DNA of 64,000 bases, from the NCBI RefSeq assembly GCF_026810445.1, contig NZ_CP113949.1, forward strand, positions 248,001 to 312,000, given 5' to 3'. The notes under the pieces were generated by a model. It searched no databases. It was not told the DNA's origin and worked only from the letters and a program-made list of their open reading frames with translations. Shown here in pieces: positions 8,442 through 27,865 of the stretch; position 1 is the stretch's first letter, and the number at the start of each line of letters is the position of its first letter. The position numbers were made by a program, and so were the translations under genes. The stretch is from Pseudomonas sp. BSw22131 (GTDB taxonomy: Bacteria > Pseudomonadota > Gammaproteobacteria > Pseudomonadales > Pseudomonadaceae).

Positions 8442-9308
8442 CTAGTCACTGTCCGCATCAATGCACGCGCTTGTGATATCGGCAACATCCAGTAGGGATA
8501 GGCCAAGCGCCTTGTTGTGCGGTGCGAGCATTGCCCAGGCCTCGGCACCATTCATGTGCGGAATATGTTCGACGACACTTAGCTCGTGGCCTCTTTCATC
8601 GCACTTGGCGATTGCGTATGCAAAGCCGTTTTGTCTGCTGTTTACCAGGCAGAAGGCCTGGCGCAGTTCGGGTGTGCGGCCAGTTATGGATTCAATGAAG
8701 GTGTTGTAGAGCGGCATCGATACCGCTCCGGTGAAGTTCGTGGCCTGTAGGGAGGCTGGGTGAAGGGTAATTGACCAGACAGTGACCGTGAATGCACCTT
8801 GGCCCTGAGCGTTGGCAAAAGTCATCACGGTAGGAGTGTGATTGCCGTTGCCGTAGTCGGGCTCGTGAGGAGCAAATGCCACTTTCTGCTCCAGGAGACG
8901 GCCGGGGAACGGAGCGAACAGGTAAGACCAGTGTCGTGGTTTCACATACCCTACCGGATCAGGTCTTGAGTAGTGTGAGACGGTGAGGCTTGTCGGATTG
9001 AAGGATTGGTTGATCAGGTAATCGCGAATCTTCTCGGGCAAGCGCCATGGCGCGTCGCTGCCGACGCTCAAGAACGACTTCGGTACTACTGACGGTATCT
9101 CAAGTAAGGCAAAAGCAACATGCGTAGTCTCGTGTGGGTGCGCAGGCAGCATTGCGCATGCCCCATTCCAATCATGGAAACCGAGAAGTTGGCTGAGCAT
9201 TTCTCGCTGAGAGGCGAGCTTGCTGACGCAGCCGAGAGATTTGGATGTGGAGTGAAGAATCTGCGATAGCAGTTTTACATCGTGCGAGGAGAGCGCGGGT
9301 ATCGACAT
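8442..9308 (-). CDS. protein of unknown function
   Basis: 288 residues if started at the ATG at 9308; the open frame extends to 9512 but the upstream 68 codons have no convincing start. The N-terminal 50 residues (LLSQILHSTS...REMLSQLLGFHDWNGACAML) resemble the short helical LGF-W module found at the N-terminus of many plasmid and island proteins; the rest is not recognised. No membrane segment or catalytic motif stands out. It is transcribed away from the regulator gene at 9809. Confidence 0.5.
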   Translation of the reverse strand: MSIPALSSHDVKLLSQILHSTSKSLGCVSKLASQREMLSQLLGFHDWNGACAMLPAHPHETTHVAFALLEIPSVVPKSFLSVGSDAPWRLPEKIRDYLINQSFNPTSLTVSHYSRPDPVGYVKPRHWSYLFAPFPGRLLEQKVAFAPHEPDYGNGNHTPTVMTFANAQGQGAFTVTVWSITLHPASLQATNFTGAVSMPLYNTFIESITGRTPELRQAFCLVNSRQNGFAYAIAKCDERGHELSVVEHIPHMNGAEAWAMLAPHNKALGLSLLDVADITSACIDADSD

Positions 9309-9740
9309 ACGAGGCACCAGATTAGCGATCCATGTGCATCTGGTTCCCCCGGTTACAGACACTAGATCAAGCTGATGTAGGGCCATGCATGAATTTGTCG
9401 CGCCTCCGCAAGCGGAGGAGGAGAAAGCATTTACCGTGCACGTATGTGCGATAGGGGAGGCAGGAGCTTTCAAAACCGTCGTGAGGATATGGCCTATTCG
9501 AACTCGCTGCAATGGCCTCGAGAATCGGGAGCGAGTTTATGTTCCCTGGTCTGAAGGTCAGCTTCTGGCCGCTCTCTGCCGATCGTCACAACGGCGTGTG
9601 CTGGTCCAGTCGAAAGCAAACGGTTCGTCAGCACGGATGCAAATGGCTGGTCAGTGGCAATGCAAATGAGTGGTCAAGTCCATGCAATTATCGACTTAGT
9701 AAGGTGATTATCCAGATCAAACCGTAATAGGTAGCACTTG
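9309..9740. other. intergenic stretch, nothing recognised
   Basis: Together with 9741-9808 this makes a 500-nt gap between divergent genes. Apart from the inverted repeat described next I see no gene or RNA here. Confidence 0.4.
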
Positions 9741-9796
9741 CTGTCATTTTGTCGCTATTATGCCGCCACGCCTGCAAAATGCCCTCAAAATGACAG
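9741..9796 (+). promoter_or_regulatory. inverted repeat operator before the RHH-HTH regulator
   Basis: CTGTCATTTTG (9741-9751) and CAAAATGACAG (9786-9796) form a perfect 11-bp inverted repeat, centres 45 nt apart, with a third partial copy GCAAAATGC (9774-9782). A -10-like TATTAT (9756-9761) lies between the arms. The site ends 12 nt before the regulator ATG at 9809, as expected for autoregulation. Confidence 0.6.
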
Positions 9797-9808
9797 CGAG
9801 TATCGTCC

Positions 9809-10705
9809 ATGGCCAGATTAAGCGTTCGCGACTTTCCTGATAACTTGCACCAACTGCTGCTCCAGTCAGCTGCCAGGCATGAACGCTCGCTAGAGGGGGA
9901 AACCCGGTTTGGTTTGGCGCGCTACCTTGAATCTCTCAAAGCACCCAAACCTGAGGCGGCGTCCTTGTGTGAATCCTGGCAGCGCTCTACAGGCCAGCGC
10001 TTGCTAGCGCTATTTGCGCGCTTGCGCGAAGACAACGTTTTTTCTTGGGGCGAGCGCAGCGATTTGCCTCACTTGGCCTTGGCCTTGGGGGAACCGTCGC
10101 CGGCAACGCTGATGAACTGCGTCGACGGTCGTGAAGCGTTGCCATTTGATCTGGCCATACGTATTGCCGACCGCTATGGGTGCAACCTGGAGTGGCTTAT
10201 CAACGGCTCTAGCTCTATGTTCCCTTACCCAGAAATTGGCGGTGACTATCGCGAGTTTTTCGAGCCAGCTATCAGAGGCACCGGTATCAGTATCAAGCTG
10301 GTCCGGCTCTGCATCTCTGAGGATGCCGAAGGTAATCCAGGCCGACATGACGGTACCTTGCTGATGTTCAGATGCAAGGACGACAAACTAAGCATTGCCG
10401 CGGGGTATAGCGGTCGCTTTTATCTCAATGGCCATATGGGTGGTGGTGGCCATAGTTGCCTAGAAGGTTTCGTCAAATTTCTCAATGAGAGTAAAAACTT
10501 GCAATTCAGCGAATACAACTGCACGGCGCCGATTGACGAATCTGCGATGTGGGACCACCACCCCAACTACTACCTTGATCTCAAGCATTGCAGTCAGGCG
10601 TCTTGGCTATACCCACTGCGCGCTGGTAGATCGCCTTCCAGCATTGACTGGACGCAGCAGCACACCTATATGACTCCAAAGCAAAGTGAGCAGCTACTTT
10701 CATAA
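9809..10705 (+). CDS. FitA-like ribbon-helix-helix plus HTH regulator
   Basis: 298 residues in three parts. Residues 1-45 (MARLSVRDFPDNLHQLLL...RHERSLEGE) match the FitA-type ribbon-helix-helix of antitoxins. Residues about 80-135 (SPATLMNCVDG..., AIRIADRYGCNLEWLINGSSS) look like a Cro/CI-type HTH. Residues about 145-298, with a glycine-rich LNGHMGGGGHSC segment, are unrecognised and could sense a ligand or bind a partner. It lies 97 nt upstream of the HEPN gene on the same strand, behind a perfect inverted repeat. Inference: autoregulated repressor of a two-gene unit with that effector. It may also be an unrelated regulator. Confidence 0.6.
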   Translation: MARLSVRDFPDNLHQLLLQSAARHERSLEGETRFGLARYLESLKAPKPEAASLCESWQRSTGQRLLALFARLREDNVFSWGERSDLPHLALALGEPSPATLMNCVDGREALPFDLAIRIADRYGCNLEWLINGSSSMFPYPEIGGDYREFFEPAIRGTGISIKLVRLCISEDAEGNPGRHDGTLLMFRCKDDKLSIAAGYSGRFYLNGHMGGGGHSCLEGFVKFLNESKNLQFSEYNCTAPIDESAMWDHHPNYYLDLKHCSQASWLYPLRAGRSPSSIDWTQQHTYMTPKQSEQLLS

Positions 10706-10802
10706 GCAAGGCTCAGCTGCTGGGCACTGGCATGGCCTTTAACCTCCGGCTGAATGCGCCAGTTAGGAATGAGGCATGTCTTGGGAATAATAGGGAGCCA
10801 AG

Positions 10803-12065
10803 ATGAATCTTTGTGAGTGTTTTAGGTGTATCACCTGCGGGACTGAAATCGACTGTCGGATAGGGATGTCAAATCGTGACGTCCAACCCTTCCAGTTCGC
10901 CTGCCCCAAATGTGAGGAAAGGATTTCATTTGTATTCGGGCAAGCTGACGCCGAACTGCAGGGGGCTGAGAAGGTCGAGGGTTTTGAGGCTCCATTCAAG
11001 GGTGAAAAGCCTTTCGTAGACCTCCACCTAGATTTTCCTGTCTATGTTGGGAAGTACAAGATGGGGATGACTACGTTTCTTCGTGTGACTCAAGAGCTCG
11101 GTATGGGAGCGTACTCACATCTTAATCAGCGACTGCATATGCTGAATTACCTCCATCCAGTTCAACGAGATCTGTTCAGCCTCATTACCCAGTACAAAAG
11201 AGGTGATCTTGATAATTTTGAAAAAGTTTGTGCAAGGATTCCAGGAGTAACTTTAACATCCAGAAATAAGCAAGATGTTTTGGCAGCACTGTATTCTGCG
11301 ACTTCAATAATGTCCTCGCCATTTACAATACATGAGCATAACGCTGAGATCAGTGATGTGGCTCCTAAAATTTATTACTGGCTACTTGACAATCACCGCG
11401 ACAAAACCATTGAGTTCATCGACAGTATTTTGAGCAATGGCTTCCTTAAGAATTTACACAACGATTGCCTGTCTTTATATCCAAAATTAGTTTCGATGGA
11501 CCTCGCGTTTCGGCCCGCCCTCTTCTATGACTACGCAGATACAGAAGAGTTGGGTGATATTCCAGCCAGGATGTCGACTGCAGACTTTGAAACTTGCAAT
11601 AACTTTTACAAAGACCTTGCTGAAGTATTCTCACGTCAAATAACACTTATTGCTGGTATTAACAATCTACTGAAACGTGGTGACTGCAACCAGTTCGAAC
11701 CATCTTTAAAGCAAACCAAAAAGGGTACTAGGCCCGGGCTGGAAAGCCTTGACGCCTTTGCCAACGTCGACCTGGGCAACAAAATCGATTTTATAGACAA
11801 ATCATTTTATGCAATAGACCTTGATGCCATCGATAACAAACTTAGGAATGCGATCGCTCACTACAAGTATGACTACAAGGAATCAAGTCAACGCATCACG
11901 TATTATCCGAGCAAGGAAGGCATGAGCCGGGAGAAGTGCTATGAAATCCAATTCATGAGTTTCATTAGAAAGTCACTGCTCCTATTCAGAGAGGTTCATA
12001 ATGTGAACCACATTATTAAGGCGACGCTTTTTCTATGTGTCTTGGTATTGAAAAAGGACATATAA
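10803..12065 (+). CDS. zinc-ribbon protein with C-terminal HEPN RNase motif
   Basis: 420 residues. The N-terminus has a zinc ribbon: C9-x2-C12 and C34-x2-C37. The middle (residues about 70-320) is helical and not recognised. Near the C-terminus KLRNAIAHYKYD gives R348-N-x3-H353, the RNxxxH signature of HEPN ribonucleases, inside an all-helical stretch. HEPN proteins with this motif are commonly metal-independent RNases in toxin-antitoxin, abortive-infection and CRISPR systems. A strong ribosome site (ATAGGGAGCC) precedes the ATG. The base composition is more AT-rich than the chromosome on the right. It is followed by a terminator at 12225. Inference: the toxic effector of a defence or toxin-antitoxin unit with the upstream regulator. 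Confidence 0.6.
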   Translation: MNLCECFRCITCGTEIDCRIGMSNRDVQPFQFACPKCEERISFVFGQADAELQGAEKVEGFEAPFKGEKPFVDLHLDFPVYVGKYKMGMTTFLRVTQELGMGAYSHLNQRLHMLNYLHPVQRDLFSLITQYKRGDLDNFEKVCARIPGVTLTSRNKQDVLAALYSATSIMSSPFTIHEHNAEISDVAPKIYYWLLDNHRDKTIEFIDSILSNGFLKNLHNDCLSLYPKLVSMDLAFRPALFYDYADTEELGDIPARMSTADFETCNNFYKDLAEVFSRQITLIAGINNLLKRGDCNQFEPSLKQTKKGTRPGLESLDAFANVDLGNKIDFIDKSFYAIDLDAIDNKLRNAIAHYKYDYKESSQRITYYPSKEGMSREKCYEIQFMSFIRKSLLLFREVHNVNHIIKATLFLCVLVLKKDI

Positions 12066-12224
12066 AAGGCAGGAGGTTATTTCGCATTACTGGCGAGAGT
12101 ATAGTTCACTGTCGTAAGGGGTAGGTCGTGGGTAGCCGTCTCGTGCTACGCCCACGCCATATGACGCGAAACTGGCCCTGATCGAACCGATGAGGGCTGG
12201 CCCACGAAACTCACGAATGCACCT

Positions 12225-12254
12225 CCAACCAAGCGTGGCTTGGTTGGCCCCTTT
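12225..12254 (+). terminator. Rho-independent terminator
   Basis: CCAACCAAGC / GCTTGGTTGG stem (10 bp) with a 3-nt loop, followed by CCCCTTTT. It ends the unit transcribed from the RHH-HTH and HEPN genes before the convergent helicase gene. Confidence 0.7.
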
Positions 12255-12295
12255 TCGATTCCCTCAACAACTACCGGATTGCCCTTAGCCATACC

Positions 12296-13726
12296 TTATG
12301 CCGGCAAGTGTCGAACTGTCCCGATGATGGTGAGAGATTTCGCTCCTCGGGTCATCGCGACGTACAAATCCTTCGCATCAAGCGAGTCGGCATCAAGAAT
12401 GACGGCGTGGTCATACTCAAGGCCTTTAACCAGCAACGTAGTACCAATCAGCTTGCGGTGGTTGATCGGTCGGCCCGAATGCCTCATCTCACGCTGATAA
12501 AGAATGCCAGCCTCAACGAGCGTCGTGGCTTGACCATCAATATGAATCTTGAGCACGTTTAAGAAACGATAGAGTAAGTCACGGCGATAGGCTGATGTTT
12601 CGGGGTTGCTCTTCAATGTTTCGAAGAAGGCCTTAAGATGGCTGCTGGACGGGTCAGTCAGATAGTCATTTGCAGCTTGAAGGACCAAAGGGTATTTAGT
12701 GGTCCTGCGCAGCTTGGTTACTTCGCCTCGTCTGGTTCCGGCCGTCAACGCACTGGGTACACCAGTGAGACATTTCATCGCAAATTTCACTACAAGGAGA
12801 AACCCCGCCTGAACAGTCTTGACGGCAACAAGCTTTTTGATAAACGAATGCAGATCTTTACCTTCGATTTCCTCGATTGAGGAAAAACGTCCGGCCATGG
12901 TTTTCGCCAAGAGATGCGTTTTGTTCTTGGACTGCTGATCGCCACCGTGCAGGGCGATGACGCTCTCATTATGGTTCAACAGCCCACAGAGCGCTGAGTA
13001 CTGTTTAGCTGCGAGATAGTCGGGCTGGGTGTATGCACGAATTACGCTCGGTGGCAGATGGGCTGACAGATCAATCTTTTGGCCTAGCTCGATCTTCCGC
13101 CTCACATTTTTGAGCCATTCGCCAAGTTCCGGACTCTTCGCCTTGACCCACCGCCAAGGGACCTCCAGCTGTCCCAAGCAATCAAATTTGGGGTAAACGC
13201 TGACTTCCCAATCAACGGGCTTGCCATCGTCAAAATCAAATATGGATTGGAGGGGGTCTCCCAACAGTCGGCTTGGAAGAAATTCTGCCAGGTTGCAGAC
13301 GAGATCATGTTGTACGTCTGAGCAGTCCTGGTACTCGTCGACGTAGAGACCTATGTAGCTGGACGACACGGCCTTACGAATGAACCTCTTCCCCAGCAAA
13401 CGGGAGCAGCACTCGTACAACTTACTCCACTGCTTGCTAGTCGGGTTTTCAATTTTCCACCCCGATGCCTTCGGGTACGCTAGACAGAGTCGAAGTGCCC
13501 AGCTAGCGATCGTATCGACCTGGTACTGGGAAGCACGAACGCTCAAGCTCGCCATTTTGGTTTTGATTGAATTCACGCCGGCAAAAGTGTGCGTCAGGAT
13601 AAGCTGCCGGCCACTGGACGCTCGCACCGCCATTGCGATGAGATGAGTCTTTCCAAACCCCGCTGGCGCGATTACATAGCCCTTAGAGGTACAGTCGTTG
13701 AGCTTGATTGCGAGGTCTTCAGACAC
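12296..13726 (-). CDS. gajB: UvrD-like superfamily 1 helicase, GajB-like
   Basis: 476 residues from a GTG start that overlaps the end of the OLD nuclease gene by 8 nt. SF1 motifs in order: Walker A APAGFGKT (about 22-29), Walker B YVDEYQD, motif III GDPLQSIFDF, motif IV PWRW, motif V TTLLVKGLEYDHAVI and motif VI YVAMTRGAKS. The length is close to known GajB proteins. In Gabija GajB associates with GajA, and the pair blocks phage by DNA cleavage. The symbol is given by architecture; similar OLD-UvrD pairs also exist outside the strict Gabija family. Confidence 0.75.
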   Translation of the reverse strand: MSEDLAIKLNDCTSKGYVIAPAGFGKTHLIAMAVRASSGRQLILTHTFAGVNSIKTKMASLSVRASQYQVDTIASWALRLCLAYPKASGWKIENPTSKQWSKLYECCSRLLGKRFIRKAVSSSYIGLYVDEYQDCSDVQHDLVCNLAEFLPSRLLGDPLQSIFDFDDGKPVDWEVSVYPKFDCLGQLEVPWRWVKAKSPELGEWLKNVRRKIELGQKIDLSAHLPPSVIRAYTQPDYLAAKQYSALCGLLNHNESVIALHGGDQQSKNKTHLLAKTMAGRFSSIEEIEGKDLHSFIKKLVAVKTVQAGFLLVVKFAMKCLTGVPSALTAGTRRGEVTKLRRTTKYPLVLQAANDYLTDPSSSHLKAFFETLKSNPETSAYRRDLLYRFLNVLKIHIDGQATTLVEAGILYQREMRHSGRPINHRKLIGTTLLVKGLEYDHAVILDADSLDAKDLYVAMTRGAKSLTIIGTVRHLPA

Positions 13727-15425
13727 GCTCCGCCCACTCCCAAAGCTTTCCCATCTTTACGGCGAGATTTGTTCTCCCGAACACGGGATCATTGAAAGCT
13801 CCACCCACAACCTTGAACCAAAGGTCGCCTCTAGTGGTGTCCTTGAACCACCCCGCGCTCTTTGCTGCAGCACCGATAGCAGTTCGTAACTTGGGACTAT
13901 CCGGCCACTCGCGGATGTCTGGGTCCAACACGTCCTGATACTTCGACCGCACTTGATCGTATAACGGGTAGAAGAGTTCGACCTGGGCAAGCGTCAAACT
14001 AGCAAGTACGTAAGCCCAGGGCAGATCCACAAACGCCCGTTCCTCAAGCGAAAATTTGTCGCTCCAGACGTAGGTCGGGATTCCCATCGCCACAAGACCA
14101 GCAGCATCAGCGGTTGAGAACTGTTTCTCGGCATCACCATCAGCTAGCACCGACACGTCATAGCCAAGCTTTTTGAAGGCAATGGCCATGTCCTTAACTT
14201 TACTGGCCCCTTTGGCGTCCAACAACGCCACACCGTGATACGACAATGGATCTTTCCCATTCTCGAGCTGGTGATCGTCAAAGCCCCTGAGGAAGCCCAC
14301 CTCGGTAGCGCCCTCACATACGACGACCTTTTTGGCCAGAAACGCTTCAGCGCTTGAGCGAATCTTCCCCTGAACCTCATGTTCTTCGAGGCCCTTCTCG
14401 GCAGCGGAGACGATCGTCACGACCCCGCCCTTGCTGTGAACGATATGAAGGTCCTGCACCGTGAGTTCGCGGAGCACCATGGGCGAATGAGTGGTTAGGA
14501 AATACTGCCCGCGTTTGTCCTCTCTTATGTGCTTGATGAGACGCGTAATGCGATGGGGCTCGAGGCCGAACTCCAACTCATCGAACAAGGTGATATGGCC
14601 TTCCTCCAGACCCGCTTTCTGGATTCCACACTGAAGCATGCGACGAGATCCCAGACCTAACTGGCGCAACGGGATTTCGCCGTCATGCAGGGAAAGACCG
14701 CCGACTTTCAGGTTGATGGACGCCAAGTCGAGATGGGCCTTATAGGCATCAAGTACAGGGACACCTAGGATCTTCGCAATCTCTTGCGATTTGGTTGCTG
14801 CAGTGTCGAAGTTTGTCAGGGTGACAGCCCGGTCGACATCGAGCGAACTCCTGGCGGTCCTCGATGCATTGGCCAATAGCTCGCTCAAGCTCTGCGCCGC
14901 AGTAAGCTTGGCAAGAGCAGTTCCGTTTGCCCAGGAAAGCTCTCGTTCGCTGAATACGCCGATGAGGCCAACCCCGACCTTGTTTCTGTCTGCCTGTTTA
15001 AAGGGCACCCCGTCCGGGTTGCGATCGCACACCACTGCCCATTTCGGCTCCAAGTCCTTCTCAACGGTTAGCCGGGCGGTCAATACGCTTTCCAGATGAT
15101 CATCTGGCTCATCAAGCAGCTTCTGAGCTACCGCATCCCAGCCCCGAAGGTACAGCCCATACTTATTAAGTGCGGAGAAGTCTGCGGCTAAATGCCCAAT
15201 CGTGATCTCAATGATGATGGGATCAGCGATTTTGCACTGGTAAAAATCTGAGTCGCTCAGGGCCAGATTCCACTGGGGATGGAATGTGTAACGGATGGCT
15301 TCCAAAATTGTGGACTTGGAGGAGTCTCCTTTCCCTATGAGACAAAAAATGTCAGCAGCTGGCACGTTCCAATCAAGCGTTTTCACTCCACGAAAGTTCT
15401 TGATCACGATCTTTCTGATTTTCAC
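13719..15425 (-). CDS. gajA: OLD-family ATPase/TOPRIM nuclease, GajA-like
   Basis: 568 residues, GTG start at 15425 with AAGGATG upstream. The N-terminal ABC-type ATPase has Walker A G31-KGDS-S-K-S38 (serine where glycine is usual), signature-like LGLGSRRML, Walker B ITLFDELEFGLEP and H-loop LTTHSPM. The C-terminal TOPRIM has VVVCEGATEVGFL (Glu) and VLADGDAEK (DxD), then a tail of about 130 residues. This is the class 2 OLD layout, which is normally paired with a UvrD-like helicase as here. In Gabija, GajA is the nucleotide-sensitive DNA endonuclease. Expected role: cleavage of invading DNA. It is on the same strand as the tns genes but separated by 165 nt. Confidence 0.8.
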   Translation of the reverse strand: MKIRKIVIKNFRGVKTLDWNVPAADIFCLIGKGDSSKSTILEAIRYTFHPQWNLALSDSDFYQCKIADPIIIEITIGHLAADFSALNKYGLYLRGWDAVAQKLLDEPDDHLESVLTARLTVEKDLEPKWAVVCDRNPDGVPFKQADRNKVGVGLIGVFSERELSWANGTALAKLTAAQSLSELLANASRTARSSLDVDRAVTLTNFDTAATKSQEIAKILGVPVLDAYKAHLDLASINLKVGGLSLHDGEIPLRQLGLGSRRMLQCGIQKAGLEEGHITLFDELEFGLEPHRITRLIKHIREDKRGQYFLTTHSPMVLRELTVQDLHIVHSKGGVVTIVSAAEKGLEEHEVQGKIRSSAEAFLAKKVVVCEGATEVGFLRGFDDHQLENGKDPLSYHGVALLDAKGASKVKDMAIAFKKLGYDVSVLADGDAEKQFSTADAAGLVAMGIPTYVWSDKFSLEERAFVDLPWAYVLASLTLAQVELFYPLYDQVRSKYQDVLDPDIREWPDSPKLRTAIGAAAKSAGWFKDTTRGDLWFKVVGGAFNDPVFGRTNLAVKMGKLWEWAERV

Positions 15426-15590
15426 CGGCCAGCATCCTTCTGAACGTCATATATGAGTAACGGCGAAACCCGTTTATAGCGCCTCCCCTGGCTCCCAGGA
15501 ACGCATCGGAATGGCCATTTGCCTTAACCCATCATAGATACATCCCGCGATGTCGGGGGAACTGTTCATATGAATCCGTCGAGGATCTTG
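15426..15590 (-). other. gap before the OLD gene, with a possible 31-residue ORF
   Basis: The gap holds a minus-strand ORF 15569-15474 (ATG to TAA, 31 codons, beginning MNSSPDIAGC) without a strong ribosome site. It may be a leader, a remnant, or chance. The gap is the likely promoter region for the OLD-helicase pair. Confidence 0.25.
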
Positions 15591-16517: not shown

Positions 16518-17870
16518 TTACTTTGCAGGCCCTCGAGGCTTAGGCGATCCCTTAGACTCGAATAGCAGTCGGCTGTACGCATCCTCCAAGCCCTCCCGAG
16601 TCTGCTTGGGTAAAGCCGGTTTCTTCTCACGCTCGGGCTTCAAAGAAGGATTGGAAGCTGAACCTAGCGGATAGATCTGCTCGAAGTTCTTGCGCTCCTC
16701 GGCCGTCAACGCTGCGACGAAAACCTTCTCGCTGACCCGTGCGGCACGATCTTGCTTAGTGAAGGTCAAGACGTTCGATTGGACCGGCACGGGGAACGGA
16801 CAACGAAGGTCGGGCCTGAATCCGGGTTTACATTTCTGAAGGTTGAGGAGGAATAGATCTTCGACGTCGCGTCTGCTGCTGGAGTAGGAGGCGGAGAGGT
16901 ATGCCTTGGTGATGTCCTCAATACCGAACGTATGGCGACGGTCTGCGCGTGCTTCAAGATAAGCCGTTTTGATCAGATGCACCGTCAAACGCTTTATACC
17001 GAACGTACACCGATACAGCTCATGCATGAGGGCGGCTGGATCTGCAGATACACGCTGTCCACTCACTCGGATACATTCACGAACGTATTCCTCCCAAGCC
17101 TTCGAGTCAGGATGATCCGGCAGCATTACGCGAGGTTCGGAAAGAAGCCGTTGCTTGTCCTCACTGTTCCTTGTCAGCAATTTGTGACCCAGGCTGTAGT
17201 TGGCCACATAGATCATTGGAATCCCAAGCCCGGCCACTGTGAGGAGAATATCCGTGACCCGGGCTACGCCTTGACCGGTGCTCTGATGCTGCATCTCTTC
17301 GAGCATCATTAGTGATACACCATCACGATTGATTCTACGCCGGCACTCCGTGAGCAGCTTTGATGTATTCGCTCTAACTCCTGTCGCGTCACCGCCTAGG
17401 AAGTCTTCCAGCAACTGCCTGCCGCCAGCCTTCCCCCTTGCGCTGGCGTACCAGTGCGAGGTTAGGATGTGTGGTTCATGGAAATGGGCGGATGTATAAG
17501 GTGCACCTCCAGGCATCACTTTCATCAGCGCACTGATAGTTTGGCTCTTCCCAACGCCAGCAAGGCCGGTGAGGCATATAGGAAACGCCTCATCCTCGGG
17601 GGGGTTATACAGCCGCTGCTGATATTGCCGATCGGTGGAGAAATTATCGGCGGAAAAGCTGCGCGCACGATCAACACTGTCTTTGATGAAGTCCAAAGAA
17701 AACTGGTTGGGAAGGAAAATCGTCTTCAAGACCTCTGACAGACGCTCAGCTGCCAATGCGGGGCTCAACTCCTCAAGACCGGTCACCGGGTCAGGATGCA
17801 CTGTAACCAACCGCCGGATATCAGCCGGCGTGTCCGGTCCGTCAAAGCGCGTGGAAAAGATGTTAGTCAT
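16518..17870 (-). CDS. tnsC: Tn7-like transposition regulator, AAA+ ATPase
   Basis: 450 residues. Walker A LAGVGKSQ (about 125-132) and a Walker B region SLMMLEEMQHQSTG, followed by a sensor-like region, are those of TnsC/TniB AAA+ proteins. In Tn7 TnsC forms an ATP-dependent ring on target DNA and links the target selector (TnsD/TniQ) with TnsA-TnsB. The long N- and C-terminal parts (KEREKKPALPKQTREGLEDAYSRLLF) fit regions that contact TnsD and TnsA/B. The start overlaps the tnsB stop by 8 nt, so the genes are translationally coupled. Confidence 0.9.
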   Translation of the reverse strand: MTNIFSTRFDGPDTPADIRRLVTVHPDPVTGLEELSPALAAERLSEVLKTIFLPNQFSLDFIKDSVDRARSFSADNFSTDRQYQQRLYNPPEDEAFPICLTGLAGVGKSQTISALMKVMPGGAPYTSAHFHEPHILTSHWYASARGKAGGRQLLEDFLGGDATGVRANTSKLLTECRRRINRDGVSLMMLEEMQHQSTGQGVARVTDILLTVAGLGIPMIYVANYSLGHKLLTRNSEDKQRLLSEPRVMLPDHPDSKAWEEYVRECIRVSGQRVSADPAALMHELYRCTFGIKRLTVHLIKTAYLEARADRRHTFGIEDITKAYLSASYSSSRRDVEDLFLLNLQKCKPGFRPDLRCPFPVPVQSNVLTFTKQDRAARVSEKVFVAALTAEERKNFEQIYPLGSASNPSLKPEREKKPALPKQTREGLEDAYSRLLFESKGSPKPRGPAK

Positions 17871-19896
17871 GGCCTTTCCCCATCAACCGCTTCTGGTCGG
17901 TGGCATCACGCTCGGCCGCTCCGCCCTTTGCAGGACGCCCCAGCTTGCGAGTACCACTGTCCCAGGCTTTGCTTGTTGCGTGAAGAAACTGGGCATTGCG
18001 ATCCTGGAGTATCGCGGGCTGTTCTTCACGAAGCTGCGCCTTTCCGCGCAGCCGATTCTCATTGAGCACTTGAAGATCCGAGAGCGAAATGTCGACACTG
18101 CTGGGATGGACGCTCGCTGGCTTTACAAAATCGAGTTCGTACAAGACACCCTCTAACTCGATCCAGATATGTCTGACACACATGGTCATCACATAAGCTG
18201 TGACAAGTATCTGGCCATTGAGCGCAATCCTGTCAAAAACTTCGGTATCAATCAGCTTTGAAGAGTTGTACTTACGGCCATAAAAATAAACTCCACTCCT
18301 TTTGATTTGCGCCGGATGAGGAGTCAGGAACTCTCGTACGGCGTAGTCAAAACTAACCTCCGTTCCCGCATCGTAACCAAGATTACTATAGAACTTGTAA
18401 ATATTATGTGGGGTCGGACTGAAGCCCACCTCCAACATCTCAGGCGTCATCCTCCCCTCAGCATCAGAAGCGTCATTATCGTAAATAGCTTGCAGAATAT
18501 GCCGCTTGCACATCTCCACGAAGTTTAGCGAGCTATGAAAATGTGTTGGCTGATCATTATTAGACTTGGTCCGAGGATGTGACGACTCAACCGTCGCTTT
18601 CGACTGACCCGAGTGGGTAGGAGTTAGCTCAAGCCTGGATAACCAACTCATCATTTCGTCACGAGCGACCGCTTCGGAACGAGTCGGTACGCCCATGGTA
18701 GAGCCAGGTCCACGATCGAAGACGATGTTTTGTGGCAGTCCGAAAGTGGGCCACTGACCTTCTCTGAGCGTCAATCCGAATAACGAGGCATATTTGACCT
18801 TGCCTACAGCCGTCGAAAACAAAGCCATACGGTAAGCTTCCATGCTCTCTTTGTTTTCGGAAAACCCCAAGGCAATGACGGCTCCAGACTGGCCACACAC
18901 CCCTCGAACTATACAAGCCGAATCCATAGCGGATCCTTCGAGCAAACCAGATATCTTTCCTTTGGGGTTATAACCATCGAACTCAACAAGTTGGTTAACA
19001 TTGACCAGATCGTGAGCGAAGCTTCCAACTATGCCAGACTTTGCTCGAGCACCGCTGGGACCTCTGCGTGCTTTCCTATACGCCTTGGTGCTTATCACCT
19101 GACCAAGATAGTAGTCATACTGTCCTTTTGTGGGAAATGGCTTCCCTTCAGGATGATAGAACTTCTTACTTCCCTCTGAAGTTGTTAGAGGAATACAACC
19201 GAACTCACCTACTAGCACGGCACCAAAAATCTCAGCGTCAGATTTTGTTTTATCATTGTAATTGATGAACCCATTGATAATAGAAGCCTGCATTTCGGGC
19301 GTAGCGGGGAATCGGGATTTGCGTCCCGACCTAGGCGGCCGTCCCAACATTTGCCCGTCTGCGGCCTGTTCCCTCTTGCCTGTCCCACAACGGTCGAACT
19401 TAGGCATAAGCGCCCACTTCGAGCGGCCGAATACCAGATAGGTAAAAAACCAAAACCTCAACCGGGCGGCGTTCTGAGAGGGAGACTGGTTGGCGGCATA
19501 GGCATTGATGATCGACTCGGGATTGTCGCTGGAGAGGATCTCCTCAGCATCGTCTACCAAATCCGCTATGGCGAGGTAACGCTTGTTTACCATTTCATCG
19601 TAGCTTTTCGTTGGCCTTACCCGATCCTTTTCCAATTGATCCACTGAAATACCCCTGATGGCCTGCAACCAGGGAGGTGTGGCGTCACTGCCACATTCCA
19701 AAAGATCACCATTGGTCAACGCCAGATCAAATTCAGGCCGGGAAAACGTTAGCAAACTCGCAGTGGTGCCTTTTTCATCAAAAAATACAAGGCGCGCCCT
19801 ATTCGCCTTGCCGTCACTTGCAAGAAAATAGTATTCGACATCCTTCGTCAGCCCTCTAAATCCCTCAGGTGCTTTCAGCTTGGAGCCAGTTATCAT
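17863..19896 (-). CDS. tnsB: Tn7-like DDE transposase
   Basis: 677 residues. The catalytic triad is readable: D307 (NQLVEFDGYN), D394 (NIVFDRGPGS) and E437 (KATVESSHPR), in the rve integrase-like fold, with an N-terminal DNA-binding region and a Mu-type C-terminal barrel. TnsB binds the ends of the element and joins the 3' ends to the target. The ATG overlaps the tnsA stop (ATGA). Probable binding sites are the repeats at 27728-27852. Confidence 0.93.
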   Translation of the reverse strand: MITGSKLKAPEGFRGLTKDVEYYFLASDGKANRARLVFFDEKGTTASLLTFSRPEFDLALTNGDLLECGSDATPPWLQAIRGISVDQLEKDRVRPTKSYDEMVNKRYLAIADLVDDAEEILSSDNPESIINAYAANQSPSQNAARLRFWFFTYLVFGRSKWALMPKFDRCGTGKREQAADGQMLGRPPRSGRKSRFPATPEMQASIINGFINYNDKTKSDAEIFGAVLVGEFGCIPLTTSEGSKKFYHPEGKPFPTKGQYDYYLGQVISTKAYRKARRGPSGARAKSGIVGSFAHDLVNVNQLVEFDGYNPKGKISGLLEGSAMDSACIVRGVCGQSGAVIALGFSENKESMEAYRMALFSTAVGKVKYASLFGLTLREGQWPTFGLPQNIVFDRGPGSTMGVPTRSEAVARDEMMSWLSRLELTPTHSGQSKATVESSHPRTKSNNDQPTHFHSSLNFVEMCKRHILQAIYDNDASDAEGRMTPEMLEVGFSPTPHNIYKFYSNLGYDAGTEVSFDYAVREFLTPHPAQIKRSGVYFYGRKYNSSKLIDTEVFDRIALNGQILVTAYVMTMCVRHIWIELEGVLYELDFVKPASVHPSSVDISLSDLQVLNENRLRGKAQLREEQPAILQDRNAQFLHATSKAWDSGTRKLGRPAKGGAAERDATDQKRLMGKGHD

Positions 19897-20879
19897 TCGG
19901 GCAGTCCGGCAAAAAGTGAGCCATAGACTTGCAGAACATCCGGCGCATCCGTCACCAATGGATGATCGATAAGAATCGGGTCAAACAAACTGACCTGTAG
20001 CTTACGCTCCCATATGTCTTTGTAGATCTTCGTCAAAAACAGATCGCGCCGGCCCCACCGCTGTCCGTACGCTAAGGCAACAGACGCTACTGGCCTCCCA
20101 TGAGCGACACAGTCACCGACGTCGTGCGAGAAGTCCTCGAGAAGATTAGATTCGAGGCTGATTTCGCGATCATGATAGCCATATAAAAGATCCATGTTGG
20201 CCACCAAAACTGGGTCCAGCAGGTCCCTAGAAACCCTCACAGTCCTGATACCTGCACTATGGTAGTACGCCTCTTCCAAGGCATGCCGCGAGCGAGCTTT
20301 CTCGCGGTCTTCTTTCTGTTTCGCCAAGCTCTTCAAGCTTCCCCGAGCGACCTCATCAAAATCCATCGCACTCAACTTCACTGTCCAGTTCACAGCGTAG
20401 GGAACTGAGCTTTGCGGTTGGATATAGAGAAGCAGATCGCCCAGGTAGGGATGGGGAACCCTCTGGCGTTCACCATCACCGTAGGTCACGACTACAGTCG
20501 CGTGTTTAAGCCCGACTTCCTCAGCTACTAATGAGGTTCCCTTCACTGGCAGAAGTTCCAGTCCTGCAGCTAAGGGGTGCCCTTGAAGTGGATGAACGTG
20601 TGGAATAGGGCTGAGCATTTTCTGCTCGTGCAACTCAAATACGTCGGGATTATAAAGAGCCAGTTGGGCGAAGATCCTTTCAGGTGTAGAAAGAAGATGC
20701 AGTGCTCGGCCAAGCTTCCTGCTGTTAAGGCGGCAAATACGAGAGCCCTTGGGGGCTTCACCAGGAACTGCGTAAATTCCTGCTACATAGCTATCTCCCC
20801 ACTTGAAGCGGCCTTGTCGAGCCATAATGCGAAACAACGATTTTTTAAGATCCACTAATTTTATCCATCGTCCATTCAA
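19893..20879 (-). CDS. tnsA: Tn7-like endonuclease subunit
   Basis: 328 residues if started at TTG 20879; an ATG at 20825 is the alternative (start uncertain). The restriction-endonuclease-like core shows FELHEQ (Glu), YLGDLLLYI (D148) and NWTVK (K168). In Tn7 TnsA the last motif is QxK; here the position before V-K is threonine. TnsA cuts the 5' ends so that the element moves by cut-and-paste. First gene of the tnsABC operon. Confidence 0.88.
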   Translation of the reverse strand: MNGRWIKLVDLKKSLFRIMARQGRFKWGDSYVAGIYAVPGEAPKGSRICRLNSRKLGRALHLLSTPERIFAQLALYNPDVFELHEQKMLSPIPHVHPLQGHPLAAGLELLPVKGTSLVAEEVGLKHATVVVTYGDGERQRVPHPYLGDLLLYIQPQSSVPYAVNWTVKLSAMDFDEVARGSLKSLAKQKEDREKARSRHALEEAYYHSAGIRTVRVSRDLLDPVLVANMDLLYGYHDREISLESNLLEDFSHDVGDCVAHGRPVASVALAYGQRWGRRDLFLTKIYKDIWERKLQVSLFDPILIDHPLVTDAPDVLQVYGSLFAGLPE

Positions 20880-21572
20880 TCCTTAGCAGGCAACGTATAA
20901 CAGTCCACCTGTATCGGATGAATATGCAGTCCAATAACGCGTTGGCACGCCAAGGGCTACACCCACGCGCAATTTACTTTTCTCGGGATGAGAGGAGCCG
21001 TGCAGGGCTTGACGCCCTACGCTAGTGAATGGACAATGGATTCGTCAGGAGTCGAAAGCTGACTTATCCTCAGAGGCCCAAGGTCACACTTGGGCCTTTG
21101 TCTATCTGGCTCCTGGGTTTTCTATCCAGTTTCCATTTTGTTTTCCTCAGGCCTGATTAATAGGCCGGCAACTATATAATTCTAGCTGTCTGCACTTTGG
21201 CAGCTGCCTCTCCCTAAATTAGGCAGAGTTTCATCGCTTGTTTGTCGTGCACTTTCAGTTCCAGTAATGCCTTTAGTAACCGTTACTTAACGCAGCATGG
21301 TAACGCCGAAAAATGGCAGTTGACAACCGGAATAAATCAGCTATGTTCCGCCTCCGACGGCGGATTTATGCAGAATTTCCAGTATTTTCGGTGCTTGGAC
21401 GGCTAAAAACTGGCCCACCTAGACGATAAAGAAATTAAAAACTAACGGTAAATGCCTACGGTTATGAGAGCTCAGATTCGTGAATAACCATCCGCTGTTT
21501 AGGTGGAATGGATACGAAGCACGAGGTGCCGGCCGCTATACTAATCTCCTCTGACCCCGATTAGGAGGCCGC
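20880..21572. other. divergent intergenic region between tnsA and tniQ
   Basis: About 690 nt that must carry the promoters of tnsABC and tniQ. It contains a terminator-like hairpin (21074-21097), several GGA triplets just before it (see sRNA candidate), and related motifs GTAACCGTTAC (21276-21286) and AACGGTAA/CGGTTATG near 21444-21466 that may be operators. No copy of the CGACAGACTTTATT end repeat is present here. Confidence 0.5.
20985..21105 (+). ncRNA. candidate small RNA with GGA motifs and terminator
   Basis: AGGCCCAAG / CTTGGGCCT (9-bp stem, 6-nt loop, 21074-21097) followed by TTGTCTATCT resembles an intrinsic terminator on the plus strand, with no protein gene before it. Five GGA triplets lie in 20985-21050, as in Rsm-type RNAs that bind RsmA/CsrA. 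No promoter was identified. Tentative. Confidence 0.3.
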
Positions 21573-23189
21573 ATGAGCGCCGCTTCAGGGCAGGAGTGGG
21601 TGGCAAGGCCATTCCCTCGGCTGGACTGGCTACCCGACGAAACACTGTTCAGTTTGTGCAGTCGACAGCATCTGGTAATGGGTAACTTAAACCCTGCGAC
21701 GACATCCACCGCTGTGTTGGGACTGCGTCAGCAATTTATAAAACATGATATTCCCTGCGGAATTTCAGCGTTAGAACGAACTGGGTTCGAATACTTGGGC
21801 AGTGCAGAATCTATTCTTCTTAATCACACAATATTCCCACTATTTGTTCCATTTCAAAATAAAGTTAAAATTGAAGACGCGTTAATGACTGTAAAAAGCG
21901 ATCGCCTTGATTCAATTAAATATCGACTTGGCCTGGTATCAAGCGGCTTCGGCGCTGAACACCCGTTGAAAGCATGTCCGTACTGTATGTGCGAGGATGT
22001 GCACGCCCATGGCATAGCTTACTGGCACCTCACACACCAATATCCAGGTGTGCTGATCTGTCCACGCCATCAAGCTTGGCTCATGGCATCCACCAAAAGT
22101 AGACGGTGGTCGGGTCGGTTTGAATGGTCGCTACCTGCCAACGAATTCTTGATCGAACAGGCCTCATCTCAGAAACTCTGGTCACGTCCAGTTTTTTTGG
22201 CCTTGGCGGACAATGTCATCGACCTTGCGTCCATCGGCCGAGCGACGTCCTTCGAACCTTGCGCCGTCGCCAGGGCCTATCGAACAGCTGTACTCCAGGG
22301 GAGCAGATCTGCATCACTGCTCGACCGCACCGAGCAGCTTCGCCGCTTTCATCTCTTTGAATCATTGCCGACAGACAAAAGAAGCTCAGAGTCATTTGTG
22401 AACCAGTTTGTCCGTACCCCCCGCAGAAGCATTCATCCTCTGAAACATCTGATTCTGATTGATTGGCTATTTGATGACCTGCACTCGTTTCTAGAGGCCT
22501 ACAACGCCGAAGTGGCCAGATCAGCCCAGCAAGTGGCACGCACTCCATCGCGGTTACCTGATAAGCGAGTCTCGCTATCAAGCTCTGGGGCTCCAGCCAA
22601 AAACGCTCCCAGGCCAAAACGACTAAAAGGCCGGCTCAGAGAGGATCTGCTTTTAAAACTGGCTGAGGGCGTATCGAAACAGGTGCTTTGTGAAGAGTTT
22701 CAAATCACTGTCTCCACGATCAATAAGCTGCTACGTGCCTATCCAGCGACCTACGCCATAGCACTTAAAGCTAGGCACCGCCGCGAGACTGATGAGCACA
22801 GGAGTCAGTGGCAACACCTGCACGGTTTGTATCCTGAACTGGGAGTCCAGGCTTTGAGGAACAAAATGCCTCCTCTCTACGCCTGGCTTTACCGAAACGA
22901 CAAAACCTGGCTGATAGCCGAAGGCCAAACCTTCGCCAAACCTGCGCACGTGAACAAGCACCATGTTGACTGGGAGGCCCGAGATTATCGGCTACTGAGC
23001 ATGTTACGAATGGCATGCGATTCGATCGCTTTACCGCAGCGCGGTCCGGTCACAATGGCCCAGCTGTACGCCATGATCCCCATACTCTCGACTTGCCTGG
23101 AAAACCGGTGCCAATACCCCGAGTCCAGAGCATACCTGTCTACGGTGCTGGGTCGCTCCAAGCCGCAAGATCTCCTCGACCACGGATAG
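21573..23189 (+). CDS. tniQ: TnsD/TniQ-family target selector
   Basis: 538 residues. The N-terminal TniQ domain begins FPRLDWLPDETLFSLCSR; a zinc finger follows, CPYCMCEDVHAHGIAYWHLTHQ with CPRH downstream. Residues 345-440 hold a helix-turn-helix (GVSKQVLCEEFQITVSTINKLLR) and the C-terminal 150 residues another DNA-binding region, as in TnsD. TnsD/TniQ proteins recognise a fixed chromosomal site and recruit TnsC. Here the recognised site is probably in the 3' end of the HAD gene at 27.9 kb. It is divergent from tnsA rather than last in the operon as in Tn7. Confidence 0.88.
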   Translation: MSAASGQEWVARPFPRLDWLPDETLFSLCSRQHLVMGNLNPATTSTAVLGLRQQFIKHDIPCGISALERTGFEYLGSAESILLNHTIFPLFVPFQNKVKIEDALMTVKSDRLDSIKYRLGLVSSGFGAEHPLKACPYCMCEDVHAHGIAYWHLTHQYPGVLICPRHQAWLMASTKSRRWSGRFEWSLPANEFLIEQASSQKLWSRPVFLALADNVIDLASIGRATSFEPCAVARAYRTAVLQGSRSASLLDRTEQLRRFHLFESLPTDKRSSESFVNQFVRTPRRSIHPLKHLILIDWLFDDLHSFLEAYNAEVARSAQQVARTPSRLPDKRVSLSSSGAPAKNAPRPKRLKGRLREDLLLKLAEGVSKQVLCEEFQITVSTINKLLRAYPATYAIALKARHRRETDEHRSQWQHLHGLYPELGVQALRNKMPPLYAWLYRNDKTWLIAEGQTFAKPAHVNKHHVDWEARDYRLLSMLRMACDSIALPQRGPVTMAQLYAMIPILSTCLENRCQYPESRAYLSTVLGRSKPQDLLDHG

Positions 23190-27385: not shown

Positions 27386-27727
27386 GTCTTATATGCTCCG
27401 TAACGGTTAGGTAGTTTAGAAGTGGTCACGGCAAATGAGACATTGCTCTGGGAGAAACGCAGCATGGTTGACGGCAAGGACTGCAGCCCTCGAACGAAGC
27501 TATCCATTTGCCATCACCGTGTCCACCGTCCACTTTTGGCCGACTGCCGCCCGTCATCACAGCCTCACATCGGCCAAAAGAGTAGTCGGATGGCTTGTTG
27601 TTAGACTCTCCATTAGGCACCTAACGGCGTAAGGCATTCTGGGTCGTCGTAGCGCCATTGTGCTTGCGCTCGGAACATTTGCTGGCTTTTATTGAAAAAG
27701 CTTTTTAATCAATAGCTTGCATGTTAA
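27386..27727. other. non-coding region inside the transposon end
   Basis: Holds an 11-bp perfect inverted repeat, CTTTTGGCCGA (27533-27543) and TCGGCCAAAAG (27570-27580), a repeat also found in decayed form at 8.2 and 23.6 kb. No gene seen. Confidence 0.5.
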
Positions 27728-27865
27728 CGACAGACTTTATTTAGTAGGTCTGGCTTCAAAATCTTAAAAAATGGCGTTGCGACAGACTTTATTTCTGATT
27801 AGCCCACTGACTAGTCTCTGGAATTGCTGAGTTAAATCCGACAGACTTTATTCCGTAGGATCACA
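27728..27865. repeat. Tn7-like transposon end with three TnsB-type sites
   Basis: CGACAGACTTTATT occurs three times in the same orientation at 27728, 27780 and 27839, spaced 52 and 59 nt. On the other strand each reads AATAAAGTCTGTCG, sharing the 10-mer AATAAAGTCT with the TnsB sites of Tn7 as I recall them. Reading inward from 27865 the terminus is TGTGATCCTACGGAATAAAG, starting TGT as Tn7-family ends do, with the first site 12 nt in. Confidence 0.75.

Follow-up and report, generated by a model that had tools for sequence, protein, structure and literature searches.

ApeA is a single-gene HEPN defence. A comparable one-protein system is DS-11, in which a CBS sensor is combined with a HEPN and HEPN residues are required for protection (PMC13092281), and PD-T4-2, PD-T4-5, PD-T7-3 and ApeA are grouped under one HEPN Pfam entry (PMC10952713). 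As far as its description goes, the HEPN protein of the type IX retron (retron-Kva2) is an RNase effector of abortive infection, a 19-kDa protein without the canonical motif that is encoded with reverse transcriptase and winged-helix partners (PMC13405049). Tn7-like transposons, in turn, carry defence cargo that includes Gabija (PMC8649781).

The gene studied here lies in the window, by which we mean the whole 64-kb stretch of DNA that was analysed, and encodes a 420-residue protein that resembles DS-11 and ApeA in placing a predicted HEPN effector in one protein. Whereas the sensor of DS-11 is a CBS, the window protein has a putative zinc ribbon and an uncharacterised middle region. Unlike retron-Kva2, it has no reverse transcriptase or winged-helix genes alongside; by size, motif and partners, as these are given for the retron (PMC13405049), identity with the type IX effector was ruled out. 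The features of the locus are as follows:

9691..10703, plus strand: DNA block common with the Tn7-like elements of genomes G119, G136 and G272 (84-86% DNA identity), holding the RHH-HTH gene and its own upstream region
9740..9797: inverted repeat with 12-bp arms (9740-9751 and 9786-9797), upstream of the RHH gene
9809..10705, plus strand: RHH-HTH gene, 298 aa, with a FitA-like RHH, a Cro/CI-type HTH and a C-terminal alpha/beta part
10764..15544: DNA block common with a P. helleri element (88-92% DNA identity), holding the HEPN gene and Gabija, no RHH
10803..12065, plus strand: HEPN gene, 420 aa, with zinc ribbon and HEPN motif; a candidate single-gene defence RNase
10827..10913, plus strand: putative zinc ribbon of the HEPN protein, C9-x2-C12 ... 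C34-x2-C37, seen as conserved cysteines
11844..11861, plus strand: RNAIAH (R348-H353), HEPN RNase motif, seen as a sequence motif
12225..12247, plus strand: probable terminator, a perfect 10-bp stem with a short T run, lying where the convergent HEPN and gajB genes face each other
12296..15425, minus strand: Gabija pair gajB/gajA, from PADLOC model matches
16518..23189: Tn7-like core of TnsC, TnsB and TnsA (minus strand) and TnsD/TniQ (plus strand), from Pfam, gene order and lengths

The first-pass annotation, made from the letters of the window, had described the same anatomy of inverted repeat, RHH-HTH protein, zinc-ribbon/RNAIAH protein and probable terminator, and we confirm it, with 12-bp rather than 11-bp repeat arms; the 12225..12247 stem is absent from the output of an automated site scan of the window. 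Upstream of the RHH gene, a 356-aa open reading frame on the minus strand (8442-9512) has no family match above cut-off.

The same annotation had seen the locus as defence cargo adjoining a Gabija-like pair beside Tn7-like genes, a view that our searches support through the Gabija matches and a target selector that lies above cut-off for both TnsD (PF15978, E 4.5e-33) and TniQ (E 3.2e-11). The matches of TnsA and TnsC are sub-threshold only and TnsB has no Pfam match; these three genes are named from gene order, length and weak matches, which synteny with other genomes fits. Homology of the core with the G119, G136 and P. helleri elements extends to 23152-23185, and no convincing end repeats were found for the window's Tn7-like element. 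The DNA at window positions 27565-27863, just 3' of a HAD-like gene (assigned by eye), recurs close to the G119 and P. helleri elements, there on the opposite side of the tns genes, possibly an attachment site with rearrangement.

The sister transposons carry different parts of the window's cargo. In the P. helleri element (L038), the HEPN gene adjoins Gabija and TnsC and there is no RHH gene; an insertion of about 1.2 kb that looks IS3-like by eye interrupts this HEPN copy after roughly 93 residues (L038:6365-8865), with full-length Gabija alongside. Gabija, directly adjacent to and convergent with the HEPN gene and part of the same DNA block in the window and P. helleri elements, is an independent two-gene system, unlike the single HEPN gene. 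The elements of G119, G136 and G272 (L045-L047) hold the RHH gene and its upstream region near TnsC, and no HEPN gene. Fragments similar to gajA near the G119 element (L045:2793-3053 and L106:11680-12035) suggest a decayed Gabija and hence cargo turnover. Three of the sister transposon loci (L038:1881-6159, L045:3276-7554 and L046:8974-13252) have in common an 808-aa and a 331-aa gene and a DUF6088/AbiEi-like gene next to the spot where RHH or HEPN follows; the 808-aa and 331-aa genes are probably IetAS-like, the 331-aa protein resembling a protein of locus L063 that matches IetA.

Searches with the window HEPN protein returned 501 relatives at E<=1e-3, and those with a Sinorhizobium homologue 34% identical to it returned 448. 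The RNxxxH motif that the first reading had pointed out is borne out by all of the 240 listed relatives (120 among the matches listed for each of the two queries). We aligned 93 full-length sequences, adding to the window protein 92 of the 240 listed relatives that were picked for completeness and diversity; R348, N349, A352 and H353 are invariant in all 93 rows, and the motif takes the form RN[AGS][IV]AH. The four ribbon cysteines are likewise invariant in these selected rows, although the alignment excludes 148 listed relatives, 54 of which are without both CxxC pairs. Both pairs are present in 184 of the 240; the 56 proteins that lack one or both are mostly gene models with their start placed at the internal Met22. 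In L030, L031 and L037, for example, the annotated start at Met22 drops the first CxxC pair even though the upstream DNA encodes it. At the DNA level, both pairs and the motif are encoded in one frame at 27 of 29 loci, the two exceptions being L013, where Trp replaces the first cysteine, and the P. helleri gene with its insertion. An Enterococcus plasmid relative with 23% identity keeps the motif, as RNAIQH, along with all four cysteines and ends in an additional SEC-C tail. In NCBIfam, residues 7-42 resemble RNA polymerase subunit P below threshold (20.8 bits, cut-off 63), and the C9/C12/C34/C37 region is a probable zinc ribbon.

The HEPN protein matches no Pfam or NCBIfam model above its cut-off, and we infer the HEPN fold from the motif together with sub-threshold profile matches. 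Among 21 C-terminal segments, three match pEK499_p136 HEPN (PF18736) below threshold (best E 0.0097; the window segment, E 0.04, over the motif); no other Pfam family is matched by two or more segments. In a scan of the 93 whole proteins, PF18736 appears sub-threshold in six and the unrelated T4_baseplate family in nine; since unrelated families equal or exceed PF18736 there, that scan alone is no evidence for HEPN. Profile-profile comparison (hhalign, against small HEPN sets) gave at best 16% probability, again for pEK499_p136, over 15 columns at the motif and in register, whereas the C-terminal part scored below 1% against DUF4145 and Abi_C. The likeness to pEK499_p136 is thus a weak, in-register and sub-threshold match at the LRNAxxH segment, and the two proteins of that family that we fetched (147 and 175 aa) lack the N-terminal ~250 residues of the window protein. 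An hmmsearch of PDB sequences with the family found no HEPN protein, and a simple form of Chou-Fasman averaging over the family made no helix bundle visible. With the fold resting on sequence (hhalign at most 16%), the protein might instead be a catalytically inert nucleic-acid binder that bears a HEPN-like motif. The invariance of R, N and H in aligned rows as low as 34% identity to the window protein argues against this, and we consider such a protein very improbable.

The first-pass annotation had further proposed that the two genes form one unit, in which the regulator restrains the HEPN RNase. In a toxin-antitoxin pair or a regulated defence unit of this kind, the RHH-HTH protein would repress the HEPN toxin, bind it, or both. 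The two genes do lie on the same strand, 97 bp apart and with no promoter-like site listed between them, and RHH proteins are described as often antitoxins and HEPN proteins as often toxins (PMC2701414, PMC3710099). Co-occurrence of the genes in other genomes had been named as a check, its lack as grounds for giving the proposal up, and this is where the proposal fails. Among 298 Pseudomonas genomes, the HEPN gene is present in nine and a near full-length RHH gene in seven, the window's own included in both counts (an RHH match of some kind occurs in 16, but nine of these had partial matches only and were not counted as holders); both genes occur together in a single genome, the window's own (G000). 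Profile searches found HEPN in none of the six other RHH genomes and RHH in none of the eight other HEPN genomes; the latter search contained no positive genome, and the same eight were also RHH-negative in the 298-genome search, where G000 matched. Within our locus collection, HEPN is matched by 42 loci and RHH by 23, many of them overlapping or repeating one place; the only three that match both all represent the window's own locus. The two DNA similarity blocks, 9691-10703 with RHH and 10764-15544 with HEPN and Gabija, meet between the two genes.

Base composition also differs, with 54% GC in the RHH gene against 43% in the HEPN gene, but since the HEPN gene differs from Gabija (52-54%) as well, the contrast is weak evidence alone; four chromosomal genes have 59-62%. 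The lack of co-occurrence elsewhere, sister transposons that carry one gene or the other and an inverted repeat kept in genomes without HEPN led us to reject RHH-HEPN as a single unit, and a unit of the kind proposed is in our estimate highly unlikely. By these comparisons of sequence, the RHH-HTH gene is an independent neighbour and not part of a HEPN unit. Read-through from RHH into HEPN in the window's genome is possible but would be accidental.

What the inverted repeat serves is better seen from the RHH homologues. It recurs, with one to three arm mismatches, upstream of those in G119, G136, G272, G051 and a P. ficuserectae plasmid; since the four G genomes keep it without a HEPN gene, the RHH gene itself is its most likely natural target. 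The repeat is thus a probable autoregulatory operator, and repression of its own promoter is the most likely role of the RHH-HTH protein. This protein shares with FitAB/VapBC an N-terminal FitA-like RHH domain (PF22513, 32.3 bits against a curated cut-off of 27; 31 of 31 aligned relatives match it at E<=1), but differs in having an additional helix-turn-helix of the Cro/CI (XRE) fold and a C-terminal part. Membership in FitAB/VapBC was ruled out, as no PIN match was found among the neighbouring proteins scanned. A Foldseek search with a model of the RHH-HTH protein gave nothing at E<=0.001. Relatives are present in 1074 plasmid records, 736 of which cover at least 80% of the query; the six plasmid loci that we viewed have an integrase nearby in three cases and neither a HEPN gene nor an annotated PIN toxin alongside, and a scan of viral contigs with the RHH profile found no relative. 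Residues ~147-290 (window 10247-10680) form an alpha/beta part with conserved HDGTLL, MGGGGH and HHP segments, which it has in common with relatives on many Klebsiella plasmids.

The HEPN gene, for its part, is sparse and found on several kinds of mobile DNA. It occurs in 24 of 72,556 records of a plasmid collection (Yersinia, Enterococcus, Leclercia, Sinorhizobium, Pseudomonas and Aeromonas), in 11 viral contigs, in 12 of 5426 E. coli genomes and in one of 369 class-wide genomes, the window's own. The two E. coli loci viewed both lie in an integrase-bearing element next to tRNA-Thr; there, the homologue WP_001395316.1 (L103:8350-9612 and L104:8350-9612) is downstream of an MltR-family gene in the integrative element. 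The protein belongs to PHROGs family phrog_13366 (E 2.1e-153), listed there as of unknown function, and despite this strong match tblastn gave no hits in 50,697 phage records. A pattern scan of genome contigs gave only three loci.

Comparing open reading frames of at least 70 aa across 28 loci (27 others and the window, a few of them near-duplicates), we found the HEPN gene to be the only gene common to more than four, with a recombinase-like group reaching four. There is therefore no conserved gene pair of the kind that a type II toxin-antitoxin system would have, and the HEPN gene behaves as a one-gene module. A solitary and mobile gene of this kind could still be a conventional toxin neutralised by an adjacent, unannotated RNA or very small antitoxin (type I/III-like), and HEPN toxins are described in toxin-antitoxin systems (PMC3710099). 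Yet no neighbouring frame of at least 70 aa is conserved, and DNA similarity begins just 39 bp (P. helleri) or 14 bp (G143) upstream of the HEPN ATG, with no common upstream stretch of antitoxin size; we regard such an antitoxin as improbable.

The neighbours that do occur are often defence genes. Hachiman, Lamassu, IetAS, TIR or PDC-S06 genes flank the HEPN gene in at least five of 24 loci, in addition to Gabija in the window and P. helleri. Ten neighbours, selected by eye, were tested individually in PADLOC and gave matches to PDC-S06 (L013), TIR-TM (L040), LmuB (L043), HamB (L042) and IetAS (L063); three of the ten had nothing at E<=1e-4 and one (L069) matched weakly. In an unselected scan, 149 neighbour frames of 24 HEPN loci (at least 115 aa, within 3.5 kb of HEPN, excluding the window and the near-duplicate P. 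helleri loci L038, L039 and L062) matched 122 PADLOC models at E<=1e-20, against eight models for 140 frames from arbitrary Pseudomonas stretches, although the 122 models overlap (among 25 listed, several fall on one protein) and the control is mostly core chromosome, which makes the contrast an upper estimate that partly reflects mobile versus core DNA. The control drew on 16 stretches from 15 genomes, HEPN genomes among them, and used 140 of their 161 frames, after exclusion of those above 1500 aa and a further trim to a set total of residues. A protein that serves its mobile element, in RNA processing, anti-defence or maintenance, rather than anti-phage immunity would fit the presence of the gene on plasmids, transposons, viral contigs and integrative elements alike. 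It fits less well with the recurrent adjacency to diverse immune systems and the lack of a tie to any single element type, and we think such a role unlikely, if less so than a small or RNA antitoxin.

We therefore favour, with a probability of roughly 0.6, the reading that the 420-aa gene encodes a self-contained, horizontally mobile HEPN RNase of abortive infection, and that the RHH-HTH gene is an independent passenger of the transposon. By analogy with the one-protein HEPN defence DS-11, we propose a single-chain, autoinhibited RNase with a built-in sensor. The C-terminal HEPN domain (RNxxAH) would act as a homodimeric RNase, held off by the N-terminal C2-C2 zinc ribbon and the middle part of about 200 residues of the same polypeptide. 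These N-terminal regions would also sense a signal of infection, upon which the released HEPN would cut RNA, either tRNA or mRNA, and bring the cell to arrest; no antitoxin gene would be required. The RHH-HTH gene would be an autoregulated passenger of the same transposon family, placed upstream of HEPN by cargo shuffling. What the comparisons show directly is the conservation of the motif, the mobility of a single gene that has no constant partner, surroundings rich in defence genes and the lack of co-occurrence with RHH; the fold, RNase activity, autoinhibition, trigger, target and cell arrest are proposed.

Neither the RHH nor the HEPN protein matches any family of PADLOC 2.0.0 at E<=1, and a word search of an open-access library found no mention of phrog_13366 or WP_001395316.1 and no text joining HEPN, zinc ribbon, RNxxxH and anti-phage. 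The family may coincide with one of the HEPN systems, four in number, that PMC13092281 describes. We put at even odds the broader claim that this is a previously unnamed family of single-protein immune systems, in which a zinc ribbon is coupled to a HEPN RNase so that one chain both senses and kills. Under that claim the family would pass between Tn7-like transposons, plasmids, integrative elements and viral contigs, with a sparse distribution that reaches from Pseudomonas and enterobacteria as far as rhizobia and, more distantly, to Enterococcus.

The family is of moderate interest: it is broad, the libraries searched assign it no function, and its E. coli homologue makes it open to testing in laboratory strains. 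The locus also illustrates how cargo shuffling can by accident create what looks, in a single genome, like a regulator paired with its effector. If our reading is true, the defence repertoire would gain a compact HEPN effector of immunity, its active-site motif fully conserved and its zinc ribbon a possible direct sensor.
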